From an uncultured Nitrospirales bacterium (GTDB taxonomy: Bacteria > Nitrospirota > Nitrospiria > Nitrospirales > UBA8639), in the NCBI GenBank assembly GCA_951812745.1, contig OX638327.1, positions 930,001 to 994,000 of the forward strand: DNA of 64,000 nucleotides, read 5' to 3'. This document shows positions 11,055 through 24,440 of the stretch, piece after piece. The stretch's first letter is position 1, and every line of letters begins with the position of its first letter. The notes under the pieces were generated by a model, which was given only the letters and a program-made list of their open reading frames with translations, did not search any database and was not told the DNA's origin. The position numbers and the translations under genes are program-made.

Positions 11055-14000
11055 TCAGAAGCGCCGGTTGGCTTGCAGCCGCACGCCATAGATCGTCGGG
11101 GTCTCGCGGCGCACCTCTCGCGTACCCTCCAGACTGACGTTGAAGGACGACCCGATCCCCAACAGGCCGCCCAGCCGCAGCTGATGCCCTGTGCTTTCCA
11201 GCGTGACCGCGCTGTACGGGGTCAGCAGCCCTTTACCTTCCAGCGTCGGCAGACCGTACCCCACCAGGGCCTCCAGCCGCCCTAAGGCATCCTGCCTCGC
11301 AGTCCCAACCCCGTTTCCCCCCTGCTCCCACAGCCGCGATACCCCGCTCGCCGTCTGCCCATACGTCGGCAGCAAGGTGAACGAGAGCCCTTGACCATCG
11401 GTCCCCGGATCCATCTGGATGAACAGATTCGCGCCCCATTCCCGATACTCCTGCGCCCCATAGGTCACCAGCGCACGGCCACGGCCAGCCACCGTCAGGC
11501 CGCTCGTCTGGTCCACATAGCGCAGGCCGCCGCCGACCTCGAGCCCCGTCCCCTCTATGCCATCGCCGCCGTCATGCCGGACCCCCAACTCCACGGTCGG
11601 GACCAGCCGCGCGCCCGAGGCCAACGGACGCTCATGCGATCCCTCCAACGCCAGTCGGAAGCGCCGCGCATCCAACGCCACCGGCTCGATCGCCCCACCG
11701 TTACCCTCCACCTTGATGTTCGTCAGCAAGGCCTCAGCCTTCAGCCGGAGGCGCGTCGTCCCGCCCGGGAGAAGTCCCGCCACCGACAGCAAGCGGCCAT
11801 TGGCGCCCACCGTGGCGGTCTGCATCGTCGTGTCGCTCGACTTGCGTTGAAGCGCGCCTTGCTCGGCGATCGCGATCTCGCCCCACCCATAGCCCAGCGT
11901 CCCCCAGAGATCCAGCCCTTCCGAGGAGGACCAATTCACATAGGGATGCACGCTGGTCATCCGGGTTGTATAGCTCCCCCCGATGGGGTTCGCGCCGCTC
12001 AGCCCGGCATAGTCCAACGAGCCTTGGGACACGGACGTCGCCAGGCCGACCAACAGGTCGGCGCTCAGGCGTGTATCCACGCCCAGATGCCCGCTAAAGA
12101 TCTCCCCATCCCAGTCCACCGCCTCGCCCCCACCGAGATTCCGGTAATCACCGGTGCCCCAGATCGCCAGACTCCGCCAGCCCGTCTTTGAGCCGTCGTC
12201 CGTGGTATTCAGCGGCAACACAAAGGACGTACCGCCCAGGAGCCGCTCGACCGTGAGACTGCCGCCGTCCCGCAGGCCATCAGACACGGTCTGCATGAGC
12301 CCCGCCAGGGTCCGTTGCGAGGCCACGTTGTAGGCGGGCACCTGGCCCACCCCTGACGTCACCGCATCGATCCGGCGCTTCACCGCCGTCTCCGTATCCG
12401 CCGCCATGGCCTGCGTCACCGGCGGCAGAATCGCCCGATTCACGGCCGTCCCGACCTTCTTCGCCCCACGCACGTCGTCAACAATCGTCACCTCGGTCCC
12501 CGTGACCGTCAAGCCGGCGGCAATGCCGCTGACCGTCACCGTCTCGTCGCCCTCCATAAGAACGTCCAGGATCGGCGTCAGCGTAAAGGTCGCCGTGCCG
12601 CGCAAGGCCAACCGAGGAATGATGACGGGAAAATCCGCCACCGCCGCAAAATCCTCAGCCGAGGCCGTCTTCCCCGCGACCGAGAGGGTCACGATGGTGT
12701 CGGTGAACCGGTAGGCGGAGCCCTGCGGGAAGGCCGCCGTGACCCTCACGCTCTGCGCCCCACCGTCTTCGGCCACGCTCGCCGGGCTCACCGCCAGCGC
12801 CACCCCCGTGGACGCCGCCTCGTCGTCCATGATGGTCAGCGTGGTGCCGGTCACCGTGACCCCCGACAGCGTCCCGCTCACGCTCACCGCTTCCCCCGTG
12901 CCCTCGTCCACCTCGTCCTGGAGCGGGGTAAGGGTGAACGTCCCCGTACCGCTGGTCTGCCCCGCCCCAATCGTCAGCGTCCAGTCGGCCACGGTCGCGT
13001 AGTCCGTGCCCTCGGTCGCCGCATCGTGCAAGGCCCCCACCCTCACCGTCACCACCTGGGCCTGGCTAAACGTCATGCGCCCCCCCACCGTCACCGCCCG
13101 GGCCTGGCTAAACGTCGTGCCGCCCTCCACCGTCACCGCCCGGGCCTGGCTAAACGTCGTGCCGCCCTCCACCGTCGCCGTCACCGTCACCAGCGTGGTC
13201 CCCGCATTCTCCCCCACGCTCGCCGGGCTCACCGCCAGCGCCACCCCCGTGGGCGCCACATCGTCGTCCGTGATGGTCAGGGTCTGACTCGTAGGCGCCC
13301 CCACACCGTTGCCGCCGCTCACCGTCGCCGACACGGTCACGCTCTTGTCCGCCGCGTCCACGTCGTTGTTCACTCCGGTGATGGTCACCGTCCCGGTGCT
13401 CGTGAGCGCGTTGGCCGCAATGGTCAGCGTCTTGTTGGTGCTCAGCGTAAAGTCGCCCGAGACCGCCGGCGACTGCGCCGTGGCCGACACCGTCACCGTG
13501 GTCGCCTGGCTCGTGCTCTCGCTCAGCGTCGCCGTCACCGTGCTCACCCCGCTGTTCTCGCTGATCGACGCCGGCGACACCTCCAGCGTCACCGTCGGCG
13601 CATCGTCGTCGTCCGTCAGCGTCACCGCCACACTCGCCGCACTCACGCTCCCGTAGCCCCCGCCTGCTACCGTGTGGGTCACCGTCGCCGTGCGGTCCGC
13701 GGCATTGTCAATGGCGTCATCCACCCCCGTCACCGTTACCGTCTGCGTCGCGCTCCAGTTGCTGGTGGTGAACGTCAGGGTCGTCGGACTGACCGTCGCC
13801 ACCCCCGTGGCGTCGCTCGCCGGCGTCACCGTCACCACGCCCGTCGGCTGGCTGCCCAGCTTCACCGTGTAGGTGGCCGTCTGCCCCGCGCCGCTCGCCT
13901 CCGTCACCGTCACGTTCGTCTTGCTGACCATCACCGCCGCCGTATCGTCGTCCGTGATGGTCAGGGTCGCCTCGTTCACCGTCAGCCCGCCGCTCGCCGT

Positions 14001-17000
14001 GCCCCGCACCTTCACACTCTTGTCCGCCGCGTCCACGTCGTTGTTCACCCCGGTGATGGTCACCGTCCCGGTGCTCGTGAGCGCGTTGGCCGCAATGGTC
14101 AGCGTCTCGTTGGTGCTCAGCGTAAAGTCGCCCGAGACCGCCGGCGACTGCGCCGTGGCCGACACCGTCACCGTGGTCGCCTGGCTCGTGCTCTCGCTCA
14201 GCGTCGCCGTCACCGTGCTCACCCCGCTGTTCTCGCTGATCGACGCCGGCGACACCTCCAGCGTCACCGTCGGCGCATCGTCGTCGTCCGTCAGCGTCAC
14301 CGCCACACTCGCCGCACTCACGCTCCCGTAGCCCCCGCCTGCTACCGTGTGGGTCACCGTCGCCGTGCGGTCCGCGGCATTGTCAATGGCGTCATCCACC
14401 CCCGTCACCGTTACCGTCTGCGTCGCGCTCCAGTTGCTGGTGGTGAACGTCAGGGTCGTCGGACTGACCGTCGCCACCCCCGTGGCGTCGCTCGCCGGCG
14501 TCACCGTCACCACGCCCGTCGGCTGGCTGCCCAGCTTCACCGTGTAGGTGGCCGTCTGCCCCGCGCCGCTCGCCTCCGTCACCGTCACGTTCGTCTTGCT
14601 GACCATCACCGCCGCCGTATCGTCGTCCGTGATGGTCAGGGTCGCCTCGTTCACCGTCAGCCCGCCGCTCGCCGTGCCCCGCACCTTCACACTCTTGTCC
14701 GCCGCGTCCACGTCGTTGTTCACCCCGGTGATGGTCACCGTCCCGGTGCTCGTGAGCGCGTTGGCCGCAATGGTCAGCGTCTCGTTGGTGCTCAGCGTAA
14801 AGTCGCCCGAGACCGCCGGCGACTGCGCCGCGGCCGACACCGTCACCGTGGTCGCCTGGCTCGTGCTCTCGCTCAGCGTCGCCGTCACCGTGCTCACCCC
14901 GTTGTTCTCGCTGATCGACGCCGGCGACACCTCCAGCGTCACCGTCGGCGCATCGTCGTCATCCGTCAGCGTCACCGCCACACTCGCCGCACTCACGCTC
15001 CCGTAGCCCCCGCCTGCTACCGTGTGGGTCACCGTCGCCGTGCGGTCCGCGGCATTGTCAATGGCGTCATCCACCCCCGTCACCGTTACCGTCTGCGTCG
15101 CGCTCCAGTTGCTGGTGGTGAACGTCAGGGTCGTCGGACTGACCGTCGCCACCCCCGTGGCGTCGCTCGCCGGCGTCACCGTCACCACGCCCGTCGGCTG
15201 GCTGCCCAGCTTCACCGTGTAGGTGGCCGTCTGCCCCGCGCCGCTCGCCTCCGTCACCGTCACGTTCGTCTCGCTGACCATCACCGCCGCCGTATCATCG
15301 TCCGTGATGGTCAGGGTCGCCTCGTTCACCGTCAGCCCGCCGCTCGCCGTGCCCCGCACCTTCACACTCTTGTCCGCCGCGTCCACGTCGTTGTCCACTC
15401 CGGTGATGGTCACCGTCCCGGTGCTCGTGGTCGCCCCTGCGTCGATGGTCAGCGTCTCGTTGGTGCTCAGCGTAAAGTCGCCCGAGACCGCCGGCGACTG
15501 CGCCGTGGCCGACACCGTCACCGTGGTCGCCTGGCTCGTGCTCTCGCTCAGCGTCGCCGTCACCGTGCTCACCCCGCTGTTCTCGCTGATCGACGCCGGC
15601 GACACCTCCAGCGTCACCGTCGGCGCATCGTCGTCGTCCGTCAGCGTCACCGCCACACTCGCCGCACTCACGCTCCCGTAGCCCCCGCCTGCTACCGTGT
15701 GGGTCACCGTCGCCGTGCGGTCTGCGGCATTGTCAATGGCGTCATCCACCCCCGTCACCGTTACCGTCTGCGTCGCGCTCCAGTTGCTGGTGGTGAACGT
15801 CAGGGTCGTCGGACTGACCGTCGCCACCCCCGTGGCGTCGCTCGCCGGCGTCACCGTCACCACGCCCGTCGGCTGGCTGCCCAGCTTCACCGTGTAGGTG
15901 GCCGTCTGCCCCGCGCCGCTCGCCTCCGTCACCGTCACGTTCGTCTTGCTGACCATCACCGCCGCCGTATCATCGTCCGTGATGGTCAGGGTCGCCTCGT
16001 TCACCGTCAGCCCGCCGCTCGCCGTGCCCCGCACCTTCACACTCTTGTCCGCCGCGTCCACGTCGTTGTTCACCCCGGTGATGGTCACCGTCCCGGTGCT
16101 CGTGAGCGCGTTGGCCGCAATGGTCAGCGTCTCGTTGGTGCTCAGCGTAAAGTCGCCCGAGACCGCCGGCGACTGCGCCGTGGCCGACACCGTCACCGTG
16201 GTCGCCTGGCTCGTGCTCTCGCTCAGCGTCGCCGTCACCGTGCTCACCCCGCTGTTCTCGCTGATCGACGCCGGCGACACCTCCAGCGTCACCGTCGGCG
16301 CATCGTCGTCGTCCGTCAGCGTCACCGCCACACTCGCCGCACTCACGCTCCCGTAGCCCCCGCCTGCTACCGTGTGGGTCACCGTCGCCGTGCGGTCTGC
16401 GGCATTGTCAATGGCGTCATCCACCCCCGTCACCGTTACCGTCTGCGTCGCGCTCCAGTTGCTGGTGGTGAACGTCAGGGTCGTCGGACTGACCGTCGCC
16501 ACCCCCGTGGCGTCGCTCGCCGGCGTCACCGTCACCACGCCCGTCGGCTGGCTGCCCAGCTTCACCGTGTAGGTGGCCGTCTGCCCCGCGCCGCTCGCCT
16601 CCGTCACCGTCACGTTCGTCTTGCTGACCATCACCGCCGCCGTATCATCGTCCGTGATGGTCAGGGTCGCCTCGTTCACCGTCAGCCCGCCGCTCGCCGT
16701 GCCCCGCACCTTCACACTCTTGTCCGCCGCGTCCACGTCGTTGTTCACTCCGGTGATGGTCACCGTCCCGGTGCTCGTGAGCGCGTTGGCCGCAATGGTC
16801 AGCGTCTCGTTGGTGCTCAGCGTAAAGTCGCCCGAGACCGCCGGCGACTGCGCCGTGGCCGACACCGTCACCGTGGTCGCCTGGCTCGTGCTCTCGCTCA
16901 GCGTCGCCGTCACCGTGCTCACCCCGCTGTTCTCGCTGATCGACGCCGGCGACACCTCCAGCGTCACCGTCGGCGCATCGTCGTCGTCCGTCAGCGTCAC

Positions 17001-20000
17001 CGCCACACTCGCCGCACTCACGCTCCCGTAGCCCCCGCCTGCTACCGTGTGGGTCACCGTCGCCGTGCGGTCTGCGGCATTGTCAATGGCGTCATCCACC
17101 CCCGTCACCGTTACCGTCTGCGTCGCGCTCCAGTTGCTGGTGGTGAACGTCAGGGTCGTCGGACTGACCGTCGCCACCCCCGTGGCGTCGCTCGCCGGCG
17201 TCACCGTCACCACGCCCGTCGGCTGGCTGCCCAGCTTCACCGTGTAGGTGGCCGTCTGCCCCGCGCCGCTCGCCTCCGTCACCGTCACGTTCGTCTTGCT
17301 GACCATCACCGCCGCCGTATCATCGTCCGTGATGGTCAGGGTCGCCTCGTTCACCGTCAGCCCGCCGCTCGCCGTGCCCCGCACCTTCACACTCTTGTCC
17401 GCCGCGTCCACGTCGTTGTTCACTCCGGTGATGGTCACCGTCCCGGTGCTCGTGAGCGCGTTGGCCGCAATGGTCAGCGTCTTGTTGGTGCTCAGCGTAA
17501 AGTCGCCCGAGACCGCCGGCGACTGCGCCGCGGCCGACACCGTCACCGTGGTCGCCTGGCTCGTGCTCTCGCTCAGCGTCGCCGTCACCGTGCTCACCCC
17601 GCTGTTCTCGCTGATCGACGCCGGCGACACCTCCAGCGTCACCGTCGGTGGTGTCGGTGTCGGTGGCGGTGGCGGTGACGCGTCGTCGTCCGTCAGCGTC
17701 AGGGTCGCCGCGTTCACCGTCTGCCCCCCTGGCACCGTGCCCCGCACCGTGATCGTCTCGTTCACCTCGTCCACCGAGTCGTTGATCGGACTCAGCGTGA
17801 ACGTGCCCGTGCTGCTGGTCTCCCCCGCCCCGAACGTCAGCGTGAAGTCAGAAACCGCCGTAAAGTCCACCGCGTTGTTCGCGCCACTGCCCGCCACCGA
17901 CACCGTCACCGCCGTGTCCGCAGGGAGCGTCACCGTCGTCGGGTCCAGCGTCGCCGTCACCGTCACCGTCGTGGCCCCCGCGTCCTCCGCCACCGTCCCC
18001 GGGGTCACGCTCAGGTCGATCGTAGCCGTATCGTCATCCGTGATGGTCAGGGTCTGACTCAGAGGCGCCTCCACACCGTTGCCGCCGCTCACCGTCGCCG
18101 ACACGATCACGCTCTTGTCCGGCGCGTCCACGTCGTTGTCCACTGGGGTGATGGTTTTCGAGGTGCTGCTCCAGAGAGTGTTGGCCTCAATGATCAGCGT
18201 CGTCCCATAGGTCATCGTAAAGTCGCTCGAGACCGCCGGCGACTGCGCCGTGGCCGTCAGCGTCACCACGATCTGCTGGCTCGAGCGCCCGCTCAGCTCC
18301 GCACTCACCCCGCTGGAAGCGCTGTTCTCGCTGATCGGCGTCGGCCACACCCTCAGCGTCACCGTCGGTAGCGCCTCGTCATCCGTCAGCGTCAGGGTCG
18401 CCGCGTTCACCGTCTGCCCCCCGGGCACCGTGCCCGCCACCGTGATCGTCTCGTTCGCCTCGTGCACCCCGTCGTTGCTCGGCGTCAGCGTGAACGTCCC
18501 CGTGCCGCTGGTTTGCCCCGCCCCGATCGTCAGCCCGAAGTCAGAGACCGCCGTAAAGTCCACCGCGTTGCTCGCGCCACTGCCCGCCACCGACACCGTC
18601 ACCTCCGTGTCCTCAGGGAACGTCACCGTCGTCGGGTCCAGCGTCGCCGTCACCGTCACCGTCGTGGCCCCCGCGTCCTCCGCCACCGTCTCCGGGGTCA
18701 CCGCCAGCGCCACCACCACACTGTCGTCATTGGTGATCATCCCCGTCCCCGTGTCGCTGGCGGTCACCGACACCGTGGTCCCGCTCACGGTCAGGCCCAC
18801 CGTAAACCTCTCGTCCCCCTCCACCACCGCGTCCTCGATCGTCGCCACCGTGAACGTCTGCATCTCGTTCGCCGTCCCCGCGAACGTCAGCGCCCCCGTG
18901 TTCGCCGTGTAGTCACTGTTACTTGTGCTCACATTCGTGTAGGTCGGGGTCACCGTCAGGCCGCCCTGCACCGCCGTGTCCAGCGTGACCGTGAAGGTCA
19001 GGTTGTCGCCTTCTGCGGCGCTCGCGTCGTTCACCGTCACCGCCGCACTGTCGTCATTGCGGATCGTCCCCTTCGCCGTGGCCGTCGGAAAATCCGCGTT
19101 GGTCGGCTGGGAGAGCGTTGCCGTGAAGGTCTCATTACCTTCCACCACATTGTCGTTCGTTGTCGGCACCGTGAAGGTCTGCGTCAACGTCGTCGCCGTA
19201 AAGTTGAGCGTCCCGCTGGTCGTCGTGAAGTCCAGGGCTGCCGCCGTGTCGCCCGCCGCAATCGAGGTCGCATAGTCCACCGCCATGGTCGCCTCCGGAG
19301 AGGCTGAAAGCGTGACCGTGAACGTGACAGAGTCGCCCTCATCGGCGCTGGCGCCCGCGATCCCAATGTCGTCGATGATGGTCCCCTTCGCCGTGGCCTT
19401 CCTAATCAACCCATTCCACGGGTTGCTCACATGGGTGAGCGTTGCCGTGAAGGTCTCACGGCCTTCCACCAGAGTGTTCTTCTCTGTCGGCACCGTGAAG
19501 GTCTGCGTCAACGTCGTCGTGTTCGCCGCAAAGGTGAACGTCCCGCTGGTCGTCGTGAAGTCCGCGGCTTCCGCCGTGTCGTCCGCCGCAATCGAGGTCG
19601 CATAGTCCACAATCGCATCCCGAATCGGAGAGGCTGAAATCGTGACCGAGAACGTGACAGAGCCGCCCTCGTTGGCGCTGGCGTCCGCGATATCAATCCT
19701 CGGTATGTCGTCTTGCCGGAGCGTGATAGTAGCCGTGGGGTTGGGAATCGTCGCGTTGATCGGGTCGGAGAGCTCCATGATGATGGTCTCGCTGAACTCA
19801 GGCGTCGTGTCCCCTAGCACCGTCAATAGGAAGTGCTGGCTGACCTCGCCCGGGGCAAAGGTCAGGGTGCCGTTGGGGATGGCCTCGTAATCGTCCCCCG
19901 AAGTCGCCGTGCCCGTGCCGGTGTCCGCATAGCTCACCTGCATCGTCTTCCCGCTCGGCTTAAGGAAGACAGTGAGAATGGCGATATAAGATCCACGAGT

Positions 20001-20504
20001 AGAATCTCCCTCATTCAAGGAAGTTGTTTGAATTCTCAACTGTTGCTCCGGGTCGTTGTCGGTGATCGTGCCCGTGCCCGTGGCCGTCGTAATCGTCGCG
20101 TTGTTCGGATCGGAGAGCGTCACTTCGATGGTCTCGTCCCATTCGTCCAGTTCGTCTCCCAGCACCGTGACCGTGATCGTCTTGCTGGTCTCGCCCAAGG
20201 CATGGTCAAAGGTCAGGGTGCCGGCGGCGAGAGCCTGGTAATCGCTCCCGGTGGCCGTGCCGGTGCCGGCGTCCGCATAGTTCACCGTCACCGTCTGCCC
20301 GGTCGGCGCGCTCAGGCTCACCGTGTACGTCAGCAACGCGGTCCCGCTGTCGGGCTCGGTCACGCTCGGCGAATTAATCGAGAGGGTTTGCGCCTGGGCA
20401 GTCCCCCAGGGGGCCAGCCACACGACGACGGCTGTCAGCAGGACCGAGGCCCAGCGAATGGAGTTGGGGTGAGCCAGTGGTTGGGGATCAAGGAGTCGAC
20501 GCAC
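11055..20504 (-). CDS. Giant Calx-beta/Ig-repeat autotransporter adhesin
   Basis: A predicted surface protein of about 3149 residues. From GTG 20504 it starts with a signal peptide (RWASVLLTAVVVWLAPWGTAQA, cleavage near residue 38); a longer frame to TTG 20600 adds an unlikely leader. The body is a string of Calx-beta-like repeats, each ending in variants of TLTITDDD, rich in Thr, Val and Asp. Residues about 951-2401 are 6.4 copies of a 225-residue unit. The last 380 residues, from SLAIWGTGDYRNLGG, are alternating strands ending in RRF, the typical terminal aromatic of an autotransporter barrel (type Va). Asp-rich motifs suggest Ca2+ binding. Likely role: adhesion or biofilm. Confidence 0.9.
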   Translation of the reverse strand: MRRLLDPQPLAHPNSIRWASVLLTAVVVWLAPWGTAQAQTLSINSPSVTEPDSGTALLTYTVSLSAPTGQTVTVNYADAGTGTATGSDYQALAAGTLTFDHALGETSKTITVTVLGDELDEWDETIEVTLSDPNNATITTATGTGTITDNDPEQQLRIQTTSLNEGDSTRGSYIAILTVFLKPSGKTMQVSYADTGTGTATSGDDYEAIPNGTLTFAPGEVSQHFLLTVLGDTTPEFSETIIMELSDPINATIPNPTATITLRQDDIPRIDIADASANEGGSVTFSVTISASPIRDAIVDYATSIAADDTAEAADFTTTSGTFTFAANTTTLTQTFTVPTEKNTLVEGRETFTATLTHVSNPWNGLIRKATAKGTIIDDIGIAGASADEGDSVTFTVTLSASPEATMAVDYATSIAAGDTAAALDFTTTSGTLNFTATTLTQTFTVPTTNDNVVEGNETFTATLSQPTNADFPTATAKGTIRNDDSAAVTVNDASAAEGDNLTFTVTLDTAVQGGLTVTPTYTNVSTSNSDYTANTGALTFAGTANEMQTFTVATIEDAVVEGDERFTVGLTVSGTTVSVTASDTGTGMITNDDSVVVALAVTPETVAEDAGATTVTVTATLDPTTVTFPEDTEVTVSVAGSGASNAVDFTAVSDFGLTIGAGQTSGTGTFTLTPSNDGVHEANETITVAGTVPGGQTVNAATLTLTDDEALPTVTLRVWPTPISENSASSGVSAELSGRSSQQIVVTLTATAQSPAVSSDFTMTYGTTLIIEANTLWSSTSKTITPVDNDVDAPDKSVIVSATVSGGNGVEAPLSQTLTITDDDTATIDLSVTPGTVAEDAGATTVTVTATLDPTTVTLPADTAVTVSVAGSGANNAVDFTAVSDFTLTFGAGETSSTGTFTLSPINDSVDEVNETITVRGTVPGGQTVNAATLTLTDDDASPPPPPTPTPPTVTLEVSPASISENSGVSTVTATLSESTSQATTVTVSAAAQSPAVSGDFTLSTNKTLTIAANALTSTGTVTITGVNNDVDAADKSVKVRGTASGGLTVNEATLTITDDDTAAVMVSKTNVTVTEASGAGQTATYTVKLGSQPTGVVTVTPASDATGVATVSPTTLTFTTSNWSATQTVTVTGVDDAIDNAADRTATVTHTVAGGGYGSVSAASVAVTLTDDDDAPTVTLEVSPASISENSGVSTVTATLSESTSQATTVTVSATAQSPAVSGDFTLSTNETLTIAANALTSTGTVTITGVNNDVDAADKSVKVRGTASGGLTVNEATLTITDDDTAAVMVSKTNVTVTEASGAGQTATYTVKLGSQPTGVVTVTPASDATGVATVSPTTLTFTTSNWSATQTVTVTGVDDAIDNAADRTATVTHTVAGGGYGSVSAASVAVTLTDDDDAPTVTLEVSPASISENSGVSTVTATLSESTSQATTVTVSATAQSPAVSGDFTLSTNETLTIAANALTSTGTVTITGVNNDVDAADKSVKVRGTASGGLTVNEATLTITDDDTAAVMVSKTNVTVTEASGAGQTATYTVKLGSQPTGVVTVTPASDATGVATVSPTTLTFTTSNWSATQTVTVTGVDDAIDNAADRTATVTHTVAGGGYGSVSAASVAVTLTDDDDAPTVTLEVSPASISENSGVSTVTATLSESTSQATTVTVSATAQSPAVSGDFTLSTNETLTIDAGATTSTGTVTITGVDNDVDAADKSVKVRGTASGGLTVNEATLTITDDDTAAVMVSETNVTVTEASGAGQTATYTVKLGSQPTGVVTVTPASDATGVATVSPTTLTFTTSNWSATQTVTVTGVDDAIDNAADRTATVTHTVAGGGYGSVSAASVAVTLTDDDDAPTVTLEVSPASISENNGVSTVTATLSESTSQATTVTVSAAAQSPAVSGDFTLSTNETLTIAANALTSTGTVTITGVNNDVDAADKSVKVRGTASGGLTVNEATLTITDDDTAAVMVSKTNVTVTEASGAGQTATYTVKLGSQPTGVVTVTPASDATGVATVSPTTLTFTTSNWSATQTVTVTGVDDAIDNAADRTATVTHTVAGGGYGSVSAASVAVTLTDDDDAPTVTLEVSPASISENSGVSTVTATLSESTSQATTVTVSATAQSPAVSGDFTLSTNETLTIAANALTSTGTVTITGVNNDVDAADKSVKVRGTASGGLTVNEATLTITDDDTAAVMVSKTNVTVTEASGAGQTATYTVKLGSQPTGVVTVTPASDATGVATVSPTTLTFTTSNWSATQTVTVTGVDDAIDNAADRTATVTHTVAGGGYGSVSAASVAVTLTDDDDAPTVTLEVSPASISENSGVSTVTATLSESTSQATTVTVSATAQSPAVSGDFTLSTNKTLTIAANALTSTGTVTITGVNNDVDAADKSVTVSATVSGGNGVGAPTSQTLTITDDDVAPTGVALAVSPASVGENAGTTLVTVTATVEGGTTFSQARAVTVEGGTTFSQARAVTVGGRMTFSQAQVVTVRVGALHDAATEGTDYATVADWTLTIGAGQTSGTGTFTLTPLQDEVDEGTGEAVSVSGTLSGVTVTGTTLTIMDDEAASTGVALAVSPASVAEDGGAQSVRVTAAFPQGSAYRFTDTIVTLSVAGKTASAEDFAAVADFPVIIPRLALRGTATFTLTPILDVLMEGDETVTVSGIAAGLTVTGTEVTIVDDVRGAKKVGTAVNRAILPPVTQAMAADTETAVKRRIDAVTSGVGQVPAYNVASQRTLAGLMQTVSDGLRDGGSLTVERLLGGTSFVLPLNTTDDGSKTGWRSLAIWGTGDYRNLGGGEAVDWDGEIFSGHLGVDTRLSADLLVGLATSVSQGSLDYAGLSGANPIGGSYTTRMTSVHPYVNWSSSEGLDLWGTLGYGWGEIAIAEQGALQRKSSDTTMQTATVGANGRLLSVAGLLPGGTTRLRLKAEALLTNIKVEGNGGAIEPVALDARRFRLALEGSHERPLASGARLVPTVELGVRHDGGDGIEGTGLEVGGGLRYVDQTSGLTVAGRGRALVTYGAQEYREWGANLFIQMDPGTDGQGLSFTLLPTYGQTASGVSRLWEQGGNGVGTARQDALGRLEALVGYGLPTLEGKGLLTPYSAVTLESTGHQLRLGGLLGIGSSFNVSLEGTREVRRETPTIYGVRLQANRRF
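13047..13172 (-). repeat. Three tandem 42-bp units inside the autotransporter gene
   Basis: Three consecutive 42-bp copies at 13047, 13089 and 13131 encode VEGGTTFSQARAVT-type 14-residue units; the 13047 copy, last in translation order, is the most diverged (VGGRMTFSQAQVVT). They interrupt one Calx-beta-like domain between two ordinary repeats. Confidence 0.85.
13300..17650 (-). repeat. 675-bp tandem repeats, about 6.4 copies
   Basis: The same sequence recurs every 675 bp; for example the plus-strand string ACCGTGTGGGTCACC occurs at equivalent positions near 13672, 14347, 15022, 15697, 16372 and 17047. Copies differ by only a few bases (GTG/GCG at one Ala/Thr codon, CTTG/CTCG at Lys/Glu codons, one unit near 15420 with a DAGATTS variant). 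Each unit holds two Calx-beta-like domains. The low divergence shows recent duplication or gene conversion; copy number may be mis-assembled. Confidence 0.92.
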
Positions 20505-20719
20505 AGTTCGGGGATCCGTGCACTTCGCGGGATACCTTCCTGCCAGAGCCAGGCGTGGTACCCACGAAATTTTGTCCTCGTTGTAACGTTGTTGTAACAA
20601 GGCCTAGAACTAAATATGCTCTCTCATTCGGCTTGGCCTTGTCAACTCCCCACCCCGCTCCTTCACGGGGCGCGGACACCCGTTCGCTTCGCTTCCTTCG
20701 GCTACGCTCAGGACAGGCA

Positions 20720-20960
20720 GGGCAGGCTCCGGTCCGCCCCTACTGAACCCCCCTGCCCCCCTTGTCAGGGGGGAAAGGCTTGCTGCTCAGGGGAGAGCGG
20801 GTCTGCCGTCCCCCTGAGAAGGGGGATTGAGGGGGTTGTCTTCCAACGGCGGGGCACGGGGGCACAACCCCCCTGCCCCCCTTGTCAGGGGGGAAAGGTT
20901 TGCTGCTCAGGGGAGAGCGGGTCTGCCGTCCCCCTGAGAAGGGGGATTAAGGGGGTTGCC
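20720..20960. repeat. MITE-like element, copy B, with internal 120-bp tandem duplication
   Basis: The interior of the MITE-like family (CCCCCCTTGTCAGGGGGG, GAGAGCGGGTCTGCCGTC, CCCCCTGAGAAGGGGG) appears twice in tandem with a 120-bp period (20746 and 20866). The terminal repeats are missing. The left flank carries a short CTTCGGCTACGCTCAGGACAGG sequence related to the insert in copy C. Together with the autotransporter upstream region this fills the 20505-21001 gap. Confidence 0.75.
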
Positions 20961-20961
20961 T

Positions 20962-20990
20962 TTGTGCTTCCGATAGGATCCTGTTACACT
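20962..20990 (+). promoter_or_regulatory. Possible sigma-70 promoter for the split helicase operon
   Basis: TTGTGC (20962-20967), a 17-nt spacer and TACACT (20985-20990). The start codon follows 11 nt after the -10 box and there is no Shine-Dalgarno sequence, so the transcript would be leaderless or nearly so. Confidence 0.35.
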
Positions 20991-21001
20991 TTCTTGCATT
21001 C

Positions 21002-22861
21002 ATGCCGCCTGCCATTCACCCAGTCGACCTTGTCCAAGCCCTTCGACACCAACATCTGACCCCGGCCATTGTCTTTCTGACTTCCCGGCGGGCCTGTGAC
21101 GAAGCCATTGACAGCTTCGAACACCGCCATGTCCCTATTCCCACCACGCGGTCGGCAGCCATTACGCAGGTGCTGGACAAGATGATTGCCGAATATCCCA
21201 GTATTACCAACCACCCCCTGATTCCCACGGTTCAACACTATGGCGTGGCGGCCCATCACGCCGGGCACCTGCCGTCCTGGAAAATTGCCGTGGAAGAACT
21301 CATGCGGCGGGGGTGTCTGGACGCGGTCTTCGCCACCACGACCTTGGCCGCGGGTGTGGATTTTCCCGCCCGCACCGTCGTCGTGACCCAATCAAGCGTT
21401 CGCAAGGATCGCGACATCACGGAACTCACCGTCAACGAAATCCAACAACTCGCCGGCCGCGGCGGGCGGCGGGGGAAAGATTACGTGGGCTTCGTCGTGG
21501 TCACGCCGTCGCCGTATATCGACCTCGGCCCCATTGCCAACGGACTCACGAACCACCCGGAACCTATCGACAGCCAATTTCTCATCTCCTATCCCATGGT
21601 CCTCAATCTCTTGAAAGCCCATAGCATCGATCACATTCAGCCCATCCTGGAAAAGAGCTTTGCGCAATTTCAGCTCAACCACCGCGCCGACAGGTATGAA
21701 ACCAAACTGGACGACGTGGAACAGCAACTGGAGGCCTATGGCCAGCGGGAATGCGCCGATTGGATTACGCAGTGGCAATCCTTTACCCTTGCCAAAAAGC
21801 GCCGCTCGCACCATCGCCTGAAAACGCGGCACGACCCGCCGGAAATGTCAGCCCGCTTGGCGTTCCTGACACCGGGCCGGGTCGTCGAACTCTCCAAGGA
21901 CCACGCCATCGTCCTGCGTCAATATCGAAGCCGCGGACAAGGGTACGCCATGTTGACCGTCATTCGACATGGCGGAGGCATTGTGGAATATCCCGCCAAC
22001 GCGGTCACCGCCGTGATCGACGAAGTCGTTGACATCGCGGAAGCCCGCAAATTTCCATGGAGCACGCCTCATAGCCTGGAGCACGCGATCGAAACGTTGG
22101 AAAATTTTCCCACTCGATTGCGCCGCCTCCCTATCCGGGTGGACCAGGACGGCATAGATACCCCGATCCTGACCGAGACGCTCAGCGACGAATTCCCCTG
22201 CCCGACCTGCCCGGCGCGCCCCGCTTGTCAAAAGGATCACCCGCAGGCGCTGAAGCTGCGCCAGGAAGATCATCGACTGACGAAAACCATCCATGCCTTG
22301 CGCACCGAACTCTGGCACCGCTTCCAGCAACACGTGGAAGTGTTGCAAAAATTCGGCTATCTGACCCCCGCGTGCCAGCTTACTCCCGAGGGCGACTGGG
22401 CACGCCTGATTCGCATCAATCATTCGTTACTCATCACGGAATTGATACGAATGGGCGCGTTTGAAGGAATCACTCCCTCGTTACTGGCGGGCGTGTTGGC
22501 GAGCATCGCGCATGACGACGACCGGCCGGCCTCCTTTCCCGGACGCCATCCGGCCCTGGCTTCGACTCTCGGACAAGTCCGGAAAATAGCCCACTCATTG
22601 GCCGCGTATGAAGAACCGCCTCTCCTGCGGTGGGATATCGCAGCGATCGCCGACCGATGGATCGCCGAATCCACCCTGCCCTGGAGCGAACTCATTCGCT
22701 CGACCACCATGGCGGAAGGGGATATCTATCGACTTCTGGCCAGAACCCTGGAATATCTTTCGCAAGTGCATGGATTACGATCGACGCATCCCGGGCTGGC
22801 CGGCGTCGCGAGGGACGCGATGGACCTCATGCGCCGTGACGTGCTGGAGGAATTGCCATGA
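21002..22861 (+). CDS. Ski2/Mtr4-like helicase, RecA2 plus DSHCT half
   Basis: 619 residues matching the C-terminal half of superfamily 2 Ski2/Mtr4-like RNA helicases. It starts in motif IV (PAIVFLTSRRACDEAI), continues with motif V (TTTLAAGVDFPAR) and motif VI (QLAGRGGRRG, arginine fingers), then the winged-helix segment PEPIDSQFLISYPMVLNLL and a C-terminal DSHCT-like helical domain (LIRSTTMAEGDIYRLLARTLEYL). A CPTCPARPAC cluster near residue 400 may bind metal. There is no Walker A or DExH motif: these are in the next gene. ATG 21002 lacks a ribosome-binding site. Confidence 0.88.
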   Translation: MPPAIHPVDLVQALRHQHLTPAIVFLTSRRACDEAIDSFEHRHVPIPTTRSAAITQVLDKMIAEYPSITNHPLIPTVQHYGVAAHHAGHLPSWKIAVEELMRRGCLDAVFATTTLAAGVDFPARTVVVTQSSVRKDRDITELTVNEIQQLAGRGGRRGKDYVGFVVVTPSPYIDLGPIANGLTNHPEPIDSQFLISYPMVLNLLKAHSIDHIQPILEKSFAQFQLNHRADRYETKLDDVEQQLEAYGQRECADWITQWQSFTLAKKRRSHHRLKTRHDPPEMSARLAFLTPGRVVELSKDHAIVLRQYRSRGQGYAMLTVIRHGGGIVEYPANAVTAVIDEVVDIAEARKFPWSTPHSLEHAIETLENFPTRLRRLPIRVDQDGIDTPILTETLSDEFPCPTCPARPACQKDHPQALKLRQEDHRLTKTIHALRTELWHRFQQHVEVLQKFGYLTPACQLTPEGDWARLIRINHSLLITELIRMGAFEGITPSLLAGVLASIAHDDDRPASFPGRHPALASTLGQVRKIAHSLAAYEEPPLLRWDIAAIADRWIAESTLPWSELIRSTTMAEGDIYRLLARTLEYLSQVHGLRSTHPGLAGVARDAMDLMRRDVLEELP

Positions 22862-22903
22862 CAGACGAAGGAGAGAACCACTGACCGTGCAGCGAGCACC
22901 CAC

Positions 22904-23959
22904 ATGACGAACGACACCTTGGCGACACAACTGGCCGGCCTGCCCGTCAGGCTGCTTCACCACCTGGCGAAGAAACGGGTGCCACGACATTTCCGCATGG
23001 GGAAAAACCGGCTGATTCAATCACTCCTGGCCCTGTCATCCGAGCAGCAGGCGGAAGTTGGAACTGCCCTCGCGACCCTCCTTCACGAACCCACTCGCCC
23101 ACCGAAGCCTGAGAAATCTTCCAAGCCGAAACGTCCGCCCGATGCACCCTCCCGGCAGTCCCCGCCCCACCAGCGGCATACCGTACCGGCGGAACCGGCT
23201 GTCAGCGTGAAGACCCTGTTTGAAGGGATCGGTGTACCTCCGCCGCGGCCTTTCAAACCTGACGACTGGCAAAAGGAAGCGATCGACCGCTTGGCGACCA
23301 ATGACGTGATCTTGAGCGTACCTACCGGCAGCGGCAAAACCTACGTGGCCGTGGAAGCCATGCGACGGGCCATCGAAGCCGAGCGCACGGTGATCTACAC
23401 GTCACCCCTGAAGGCGCTCTCGAACACGAAGTTGACGGAGTTTTCGGACATGTTTGGTGCTGATCAGGTTGGTATTCTCACGGGCGATCGGCGTGACAAT
23501 CCTCAGGCGCCCATCCTGATTATGACCACGGAGATCCTGCGGAATCTCTTGTACGATGCCGCCAGCGGTGAGATCGACATGCGGTTGGATACCTTGGGTT
23601 TGATCATTTTGGATGAATCGCAGTTTCTGGCCGATCCGGAACGCGGCGTGGTCTGGGAAGAAACGATCATTTTCGCTCCTTCGCAATCACGGCTCCTGCT
23701 GCTGTCGGCCTCCATCGGAAATCCCGATGAAGTCGCCGCCTGGATCAGTTCGATTCGTTCCACGTCCTGTCACCTGATCCATCATCGGAACCGCTCGGTC
23801 CCGCTTCGCGCGGCCTATCTCGACCCCTCCGGAAAACTCGCACCCTTCTTCCGCACACGGGACATTGCCCACGGCAAAGGCGTCGCCCTCCACCCCGAAA
23901 CCAAACGCCTGTTCGCGAACTACGAAGACCGGACCCTCGGCCCGCGCTATAGACGGTGA
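22904..23959 (+). CDS. Ski2/Mtr4-like helicase, RecA1 (ATP-binding) half
   Basis: 351 residues. Residues 1-105 are a basic, proline-rich region (LLHHLAKKRVPRHFRMGKNRLIQSLLAL, then PPKPEKSSKPKRPP). From residue 110 comes the RecA1 domain: Q-motif region FKPDDWQKEAID, motif I VPTGSGKT, Ia SPLKALSN, Ib MTTEILRN, motif II LDESQF (DESQ), motif III LSASIGN. The protein stops at the RecA1-RecA2 linker. It lies 42 nt after the gene for the other half, so gene order is reversed relative to domain order in single-chain relatives. The two must assemble to form an active enzyme. Confidence 0.88.
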   Translation: MTNDTLATQLAGLPVRLLHHLAKKRVPRHFRMGKNRLIQSLLALSSEQQAEVGTALATLLHEPTRPPKPEKSSKPKRPPDAPSRQSPPHQRHTVPAEPAVSVKTLFEGIGVPPPRPFKPDDWQKEAIDRLATNDVILSVPTGSGKTYVAVEAMRRAIEAERTVIYTSPLKALSNTKLTEFSDMFGADQVGILTGDRRDNPQAPILIMTTEILRNLLYDAASGEIDMRLDTLGLIILDESQFLADPERGVVWEETIIFAPSQSRLLLLSASIGNPDEVAAWISSIRSTSCHLIHHRNRSVPLRAAYLDPSGKLAPFFRTRDIAHGKGVALHPETKRLFANYEDRTLGPRYRR

Positions 23960-24012
23960 AGCCTGAGGCTTCGACCGGCCCATGGGTGATGTTGTTGCGA
24001 ACGTTCCAAACC

Positions 24013-24082
24013 GTACAAAACTCAACAAACTGTACAATTTGTACGTATTGTACAAAACTTTACAAACCGTAACATTTGTAAA
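24013..24082. other. AT-rich cluster of GTACAA boxes
   Basis: Between the convergent helicase and DUF971 genes lie repeated GTACAA/TTGTAC motifs: GTACAAAA at 24013, the perfect palindrome GTACAATTTGTAC at 24032-24044, TTGTACAA at 24049-24056, then TTTACAAA and ATTTGTAAA. The stretch is strikingly AT-rich in a GC-rich setting. No gene is seen. Could be a protein-binding array or a decayed mobile element end. Confidence 0.4.
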
Positions 24083-24165: not shown

Positions 24166-24440
24166 GTATGTTTTCAGTCATTCCCTTCGACTTCGCTCAG
24201 GGCAGGCGTTGACAATGTTCCCGCTTCCTTTTGTGCCCCCGTGCCCCGCCTTTGGAAGACAACCCCCTCAGTCCCCCTTCTCAGGGGGACGGCAGACCCG
24301 CTCTCCCCAGAGCAGCGAGCCGGCAGCAAGCCTCTCCCCCCTGATAAGGGGGGCAGGGGGGTTCAGTAGGGGCGGACCCGCGGGTCCGCCCTCCTTTCTT
24401 GTGGGCAGATCCTCATGCTGTCAACGAATGACTGAACATT
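24166..24440. repeat. MITE-like element, copy C, with an insert in one terminal repeat
   Basis: Inverted relative to copy A. The right terminal repeat is TGTCAACGAATGACTGAACA (24419-24438). The left one begins near 24166 but is broken after TTTTCAGTCATTC by the 22-24-bp sequence CCTTCGACTTCGCTCAGGGC.. before resuming at CGTTGACAATG. The interior matches copies A and D. With the GTACAA cluster and palindrome it accounts for most of the 23960-24587 gap. Confidence 0.75.

Follow-up and report, generated by a model that had tools for sequence, protein, structure and literature searches.

The genes P0001 and P0002 probably encode the two subunits of one nucleic-acid helicase of the Mtr4/Ski2 type, which would have arisen by an ancient fission and would have come into swapped gene order only later. 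In superfamily 2 helicases, the ATPase site is formed jointly by two RecA domains, which, to our knowledge, almost always reside in one chain. Their very long existence as separate proteins in one lineage suggests that the covalent linker is dispensable, and the pair offers a natural two-component system for studying domain closure, ATPase coupling and translocation with mixed and mutated subunits. The fission has also outlasted a reversal of gene order and a loss of linkage. The helicase family itself is known; for a form with RecA1 and RecA2 on different subunits, no description was found in the one paper collection that was searched.

The two genes and their match to Mtr4 and Ski2

Both open reading frames (ORFs) lie on the forward strand of the window, the whole 64,000-nt stretch of DNA that was analysed. 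Pfam searches and motif reading bore out the initial annotation, which had placed a RecA2-tail half without Walker A motif upstream and a RecA1 half downstream at the coordinates given here:

21002..22861, + strand: P0001, RecA2-tail subunit (619 aa) with RecA2, putative stalk/winged-helix region, KOW-like beta domain and DSHCT helical bundle
21002..21631, + strand: RecA2 domain of P0001, motifs IV-VI (aa 1-210)
21335..21373, + strand: motif V of P0001, TTTLAAGVDFPAR (aa 112-124; in 54/54 loci)
21443..21475, + strand: motif VI of P0001, QQLAGRGGRRG, arginine fingers (aa 148-158; in 54/54 loci)
21632..22036, + strand: putative stalk/winged-helix region and five-stranded KOW-like beta domain of P0001 (aa 211-345; approximate boundaries)
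22199..22228, + strand: invariant C-x2-C-x5-C of P0001 (Cys400, Cys403, Cys409), possible metal site
22379..22846, + strand: DSHCT domain of P0001 (aa 460-615; PF08148, E 6e-25, 88 bits, cut-off 22.7 bits)
22904..23959, + strand: P0002, RecA1 subunit (351 aa)
22904..23083, + strand: helical N-terminal domain of P0002 (aa 1-60; missing from family f4 of the order)
23216..23803, + strand: RecA1 domain of P0002, motifs I-III (aa 105-300)
23321..23341, + strand: motif I (Walker A) of P0002, PTGSGKT (aa 140-146)
23612..23623, + strand: motif II of P0002, DESQ (aa 237-240)
23804..23908, + strand: stub of the RecA1-RecA2 linker remaining on P0002 after the proposed fission

The Pfam matches of P0001 were Helicase_C (above the cut-off), DSHCT and a weak MTR4-like stalk (17.3 bits, cut-off 24.2), and the structural model predicts a short helical stalk and a five-stranded beta domain in this protein. 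P0002 matched DEAD (E 7e-21), and a search with its N-terminal domain gave no Pfam match. The invariant C-x2-C-x5-C of P0001 precedes the DSHCT bundle; a related CxxC is present in HelY.

Among solved structures, Mtr4 and Ski2 were the best matches of the family profiles of both halves. In the profile alignments to yeast Mtr4 (chain 4u4c), P0001 aligned to positions 322-608 and 777-991 and P0002 to positions 45-258. The P0001 part of the pseudo-fusion model described below covered Mtr4 residues 334-1071 of chain 5ooq (Z 28.9) with an rmsd of 10.4 that reflects differently placed domains, and it superimposed on Ski2 (chain 4buj) with an rmsd of 2.8 across 406 residues. When P0002 was folded alone with AlphaFold2, its RecA1 domain reached a pLDDT of around 95 and matched Mtr4 residues 146-326 with Z 24.5, an rmsd of 1.6 over 180 residues and 45% identity; the match to chain 5ooq extended over 147-361, with an overall cover of 146-361. 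P0001 and P0002 thus map to complementary parts of Mtr4 and together account for the entire enzyme.

Alignment to single-chain relatives placed the cut in the poorly conserved linker between RecA1 and RecA2. P0002 retains the first part of this linker, and P0001 starts at the helix preceding the first RecA2 strand. The halves are complete and cleanly bounded, as had been proposed: no conserved domain residue is lost or doubled and no core motif is missing. An AlphaFold2 model of a pseudo-fusion, in which the TGA between the ORFs was read as W, had a pTM of only 0.50 with a RecA1 part that was poor owing to the small number of alignable RecA1 sequences (MAFFT). Since the pair model was poor, it is from their conservation that we infer a physical assembly of the two halves.

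The pair has the features of the Ski2/Mtr4 (DSHCT) family, namely motifs I-III on RecA1, motifs IV-VI on RecA2 and the DSHCT bundle, except that two ORFs take the place of one polypeptide in every sampled gene-bearing genome of the order. Because the single-chain feature fails, the pair should be named Mtr4/Ski2-like and not be treated as a standard member. Mtr4 (Dob1), which both halves match best in structure as well as in sequence, shares RecA1, RecA2, helical bundle and a predicted stalk with them, but is one chain of about 1000 residues, whereas the window encodes two chains with the helical domain before RecA1; Mtr4 carries a DExH box where P0002 has DESQ. Ski2/SKI2W gave a strong profile match and has the same domain order once the halves are combined, but is a single chain within the Ski2-Ski3-Ski8 complex. 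The actinobacterial HelY is a single-chain bacterial DSHCT helicase of about 900 residues, and a HelY protein from Nonomuraea aligned to 98% of P0001 at 27.5% identity; in trees, the split halves formed their own clade separate from the actinobacterial one, and orthology to HelY is not indicated. The top summed scores to both halves among single chains came from DSHCT helicases of Cyanobacteria and Gastranaerophilales, which are one chain of about 750-940 residues with RecA1 first. Among other helicase-containing enzymes, the reverse gyrase of Nanoarchaeum equitans is reportedly cut between its helicase and topoisomerase parts, not between two RecA domains. Split reverse gyrase, which N. equitans and Methanopyrus kandleri make from two genes (PMC6878951), is likewise a two-gene helicase enzyme, but belongs to a different family.

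Gene order and origin of the split

A single-chain query was scanned against 84,980 species, and the best 80 loci, which were kept, belonged to Cyanobacteria, Actinomycetota, Planctomycetota, Omnitrophota, archaea and others. RecA1 preceded RecA2 in all 101 single chains that were read outside the split clade (the scan loci plus cyanobacterial and other loci), in agreement with the view that the normal relative is one chain in the order RecA1-RecA2-tail. The helicase was present in 243 of 244 sampled genomes of the cyanobacterial-type phylum, as a single chain among the matches listed, and the Chloroflexi and Planctomycetota samples held single chains save for contig-edge or weak partial matches. 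The sampling of other phyla covered a subset of them, with 79-296 genomes per phylum.

Within the order of the window genome, P0001 was followed by P0002 on the same strand in 54/54 loci read in detail, with a gap of -4 to 195 nt. About 7 kb separate the halves in one further genome (G012), and in family f4 they lie on different contigs or far apart, the RecA1 half lacking the N-terminal domain. The flanking genes vary by family while the pair persists, and the neighbours give no functional clue.

A split confined to this order was overturned by split halves in a second phylum, that of an Aminicenantes genome, which we take to be Acidobacteriota in GTDB. There, the RecA2-tail half formed its own ORF of 547-621 aa in 5/80 genomes. 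Two of them (G682 and G732) have the RecA1 half first, i.e. in normal order, with 293 and 291 aa and with a 4-nt ATGA overlap and a 144-nt gap, respectively. The remaining three (G695, G720 and G708) have no RecA1 half on the contig bearing the RecA2 half, and that of G695 was not found in the searched 1.77 of 4.2 Mb (about 42%). In P0002, the helical N-terminal domain and the proline- and lysine-rich linker that follows it together occupy 22904-23215, a region in which the RecA1 halves of the second phylum are shorter.

The cut point is identical in both phyla, and in separate, unrooted trees of each half all split sequences formed one clade (SH-aLRT 100) apart from every single chain. Trees in which the split sequences came from the window's order alone had long stems, which the second phylum broke up. 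The one clade in both trees and the shared cut point indicate a single ancient fission, followed by descent or by transfer between phyla. An ancestral single chain RecA1-RecA2-stalk-DSHCT would have undergone a single cut in the linker between RecA1 and RecA2, probably in place with the order still normal, and in the window lineage the two genes would later have come into swapped order. Normal order, known from two genomes only, with an overlap as in G682, is inferred to be the ancestral, in-place state and the swap a later, lineage-specific event.

The swapped pair may instead have originated by tandem duplication of a full gene with opposite losses, a route that would give the order RecA2-tail-then-RecA1 in one step and of which no duplicate remnant was seen. 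We regard it as a rather unlikely origin: the sister split lineage shares the cut point but has normal order with an ATGA overlap, and the split genes are one clade, so that a fission preceding the swap is the simplest course of events. A duplication could nonetheless have been involved in the swap itself.

The initial annotation had described a two-subunit enzyme, not a simple frameshift, and had made the swapped order its hallmark. The split is upheld and a two-subunit enzyme is probable, but the emphasis on order does not hold, since the split is also found with the genes in normal order (G682, G732) or unlinked (f4). The swapped order, for whose conservation across phyla a search of homologous pairs had been suggested, was constant in the 54 loci of the order but reversed in the two adjacent pairs of the second phylum. 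Gene order is therefore incidental to a fission that is shared by normal-order and unlinked genes of one clade.

A probable motor of two conserved chains

In superfamily 2 helicases, ATP bound on RecA1 is hydrolysed when the motif VI arginines of RecA2 close on it. Because both sides of this ATPase site are conserved on separate chains, a two-subunit motor is the simplest reading, and the pair very probably functions as a single enzyme. The RecA1 subunit would bind ATP through motifs I and II, and the RecA2-tail subunit would contribute the motif VI arginine fingers and the greater part of the nucleic-acid path; the ATPase site, shared between the chains, would form only once both come together. 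The tail would comprise stalk, KOW-like domain and DSHCT bundle, parts of the kind that line the RNA path in Mtr4, and the assembled motor would translocate 3'-5' as Mtr4 does. Subunit binding, ATPase activity, 3'-5' polarity and an RNA substrate are proposed by analogy to Mtr4, Ski2 and HelY. A role on RNA is plausible because the single-chain relative HelY of Streptomyces is described as a ribosome-associated RNA helicase that occurs on ribosomes during antibiotic stress (PMC7157823) and because exosomes are supplied with RNA by Ski2-like helicases (PMC5818665). More speculatively, RecA1 might be a detachable motor half, the helicase being assembled and dismantled or its ATP-binding subunit exchanged in order to switch RNA unwinding on and off. 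We consider this doubtful; if true, it would explain the long separation, the tolerance of any gene order and the unlinking.

The window genome is a single contig (100% complete) and contains neither a second copy of either half nor a full-length relative elsewhere. A reading as decayed duplicates of a full-length Ski2-like gene, which the initial annotation had raised, is not upheld, and none of the sampled genomes of the order has a single ORF instead. P0001 was found in 57/60 relatives and P0002 in 55/60; the two counts differ by G047, in which P0002 is missing since the contig ends, and by G027, a fragmentary genome (64% complete). Within the sampled phylum, the RecA2 half was present in 97 of the order's genomes, with an open frame never as long as a fused chain, and one member (G149, 99% complete) lacked both halves. 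Within these sampling limits, the halves are kept or lost together. The motifs, whose conservation in relatives the initial annotation had named as support, are intact in all 54/54 RecA2 halves and in every RecA1 half not cut by a contig end, the sole gap in a core motif among the 54 loci being in such a cut one (L096). Values of dN/dS were 0.02-0.15 for P0001 and 0.06-0.22 for P0002, and both halves are under strong purifying selection. Pairwise distances of the two halves correlated (r = 0.93), which adds little as it is expected for two vertically inherited genes.

The halves might also have ceased to act as one motor, with a RecA2-tail protein that turned into an ATP-independent RNA-binding factor and a RecA1 protein that acts alone or with another partner. 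The three genomes of the second phylum with a RecA2-tail half but without adjacent RecA1 half, in which the former may lack a partner altogether, are compatible with such separate functions, as are the unlinked halves of family f4 with their RecA1 lacking the N-terminal domain. An ATP-independent factor would, however, not need motifs V and VI, which act on RecA1-bound ATP and are invariant, and the joint retention or loss of the halves likewise speaks for a common function. Separate functions are therefore unlikely, and the two-subunit motor is preferred.

In the window, the ORFs share a frame and are separated by one in-frame TGA and 14 codons, an arrangement that would also fit a normal gene altered by decay, sequencing error or assembly rearrangement, or stop readthrough fusing both ORFs into one permuted chain. 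The first of these explanations has a negligible probability and is ruled out by conservation across the order, where nearly all genomes have both ORFs, identically bounded, at about 50-93% identity, with low dN/dS, no full-length copy and a shared frame in just 9/54 loci. Readthrough is rejected as practically out of the question, given that the frame relation varies, that in several relatives additional stops intervene or the ORFs overlap by 4 nt in another frame, that one family is unlinked and that sister lineages have the reverse order. The shared frame of the window is a matter of chance, because few relatives share it and others have extra stops.

Surroundings of the gene pair

One candidate promoter was recognized by eye across genus relatives:

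20962..20990, + strand: candidate promoter, TTGTGC - 17 nt - TACACT

This pair is conserved in the genus of the window genome; a consensus promoter scan did not list it. Because it ends 11 nt upstream of the P0001 start codon, the sequence suggests a nearly leaderless mRNA for P0001.

On either side of the gene pair (20731-20962 and 24231-24378) lie copies, inverted relative to each other, of a dispersed G+C-rich repeat about 100 nt long; the genome contains 42 matches to this repeat, of which nine are nearly full length. Short imperfect repeats of the GTACAAAACT type occupy positions 24004-24080 just 3' of P0002. An ORF of 3181 aa on the reverse strand (11055-20600) contains long repeats that are nearly identical (EVSPASISENSG...) and has an end that looks like an outer-membrane barrel. 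In family f3 (L050, L051, L074 and others), an upstream ORF ending in ...ESGLVVISKGMKLHA crosses the start codon of the RecA2 half, and the genes overlap.
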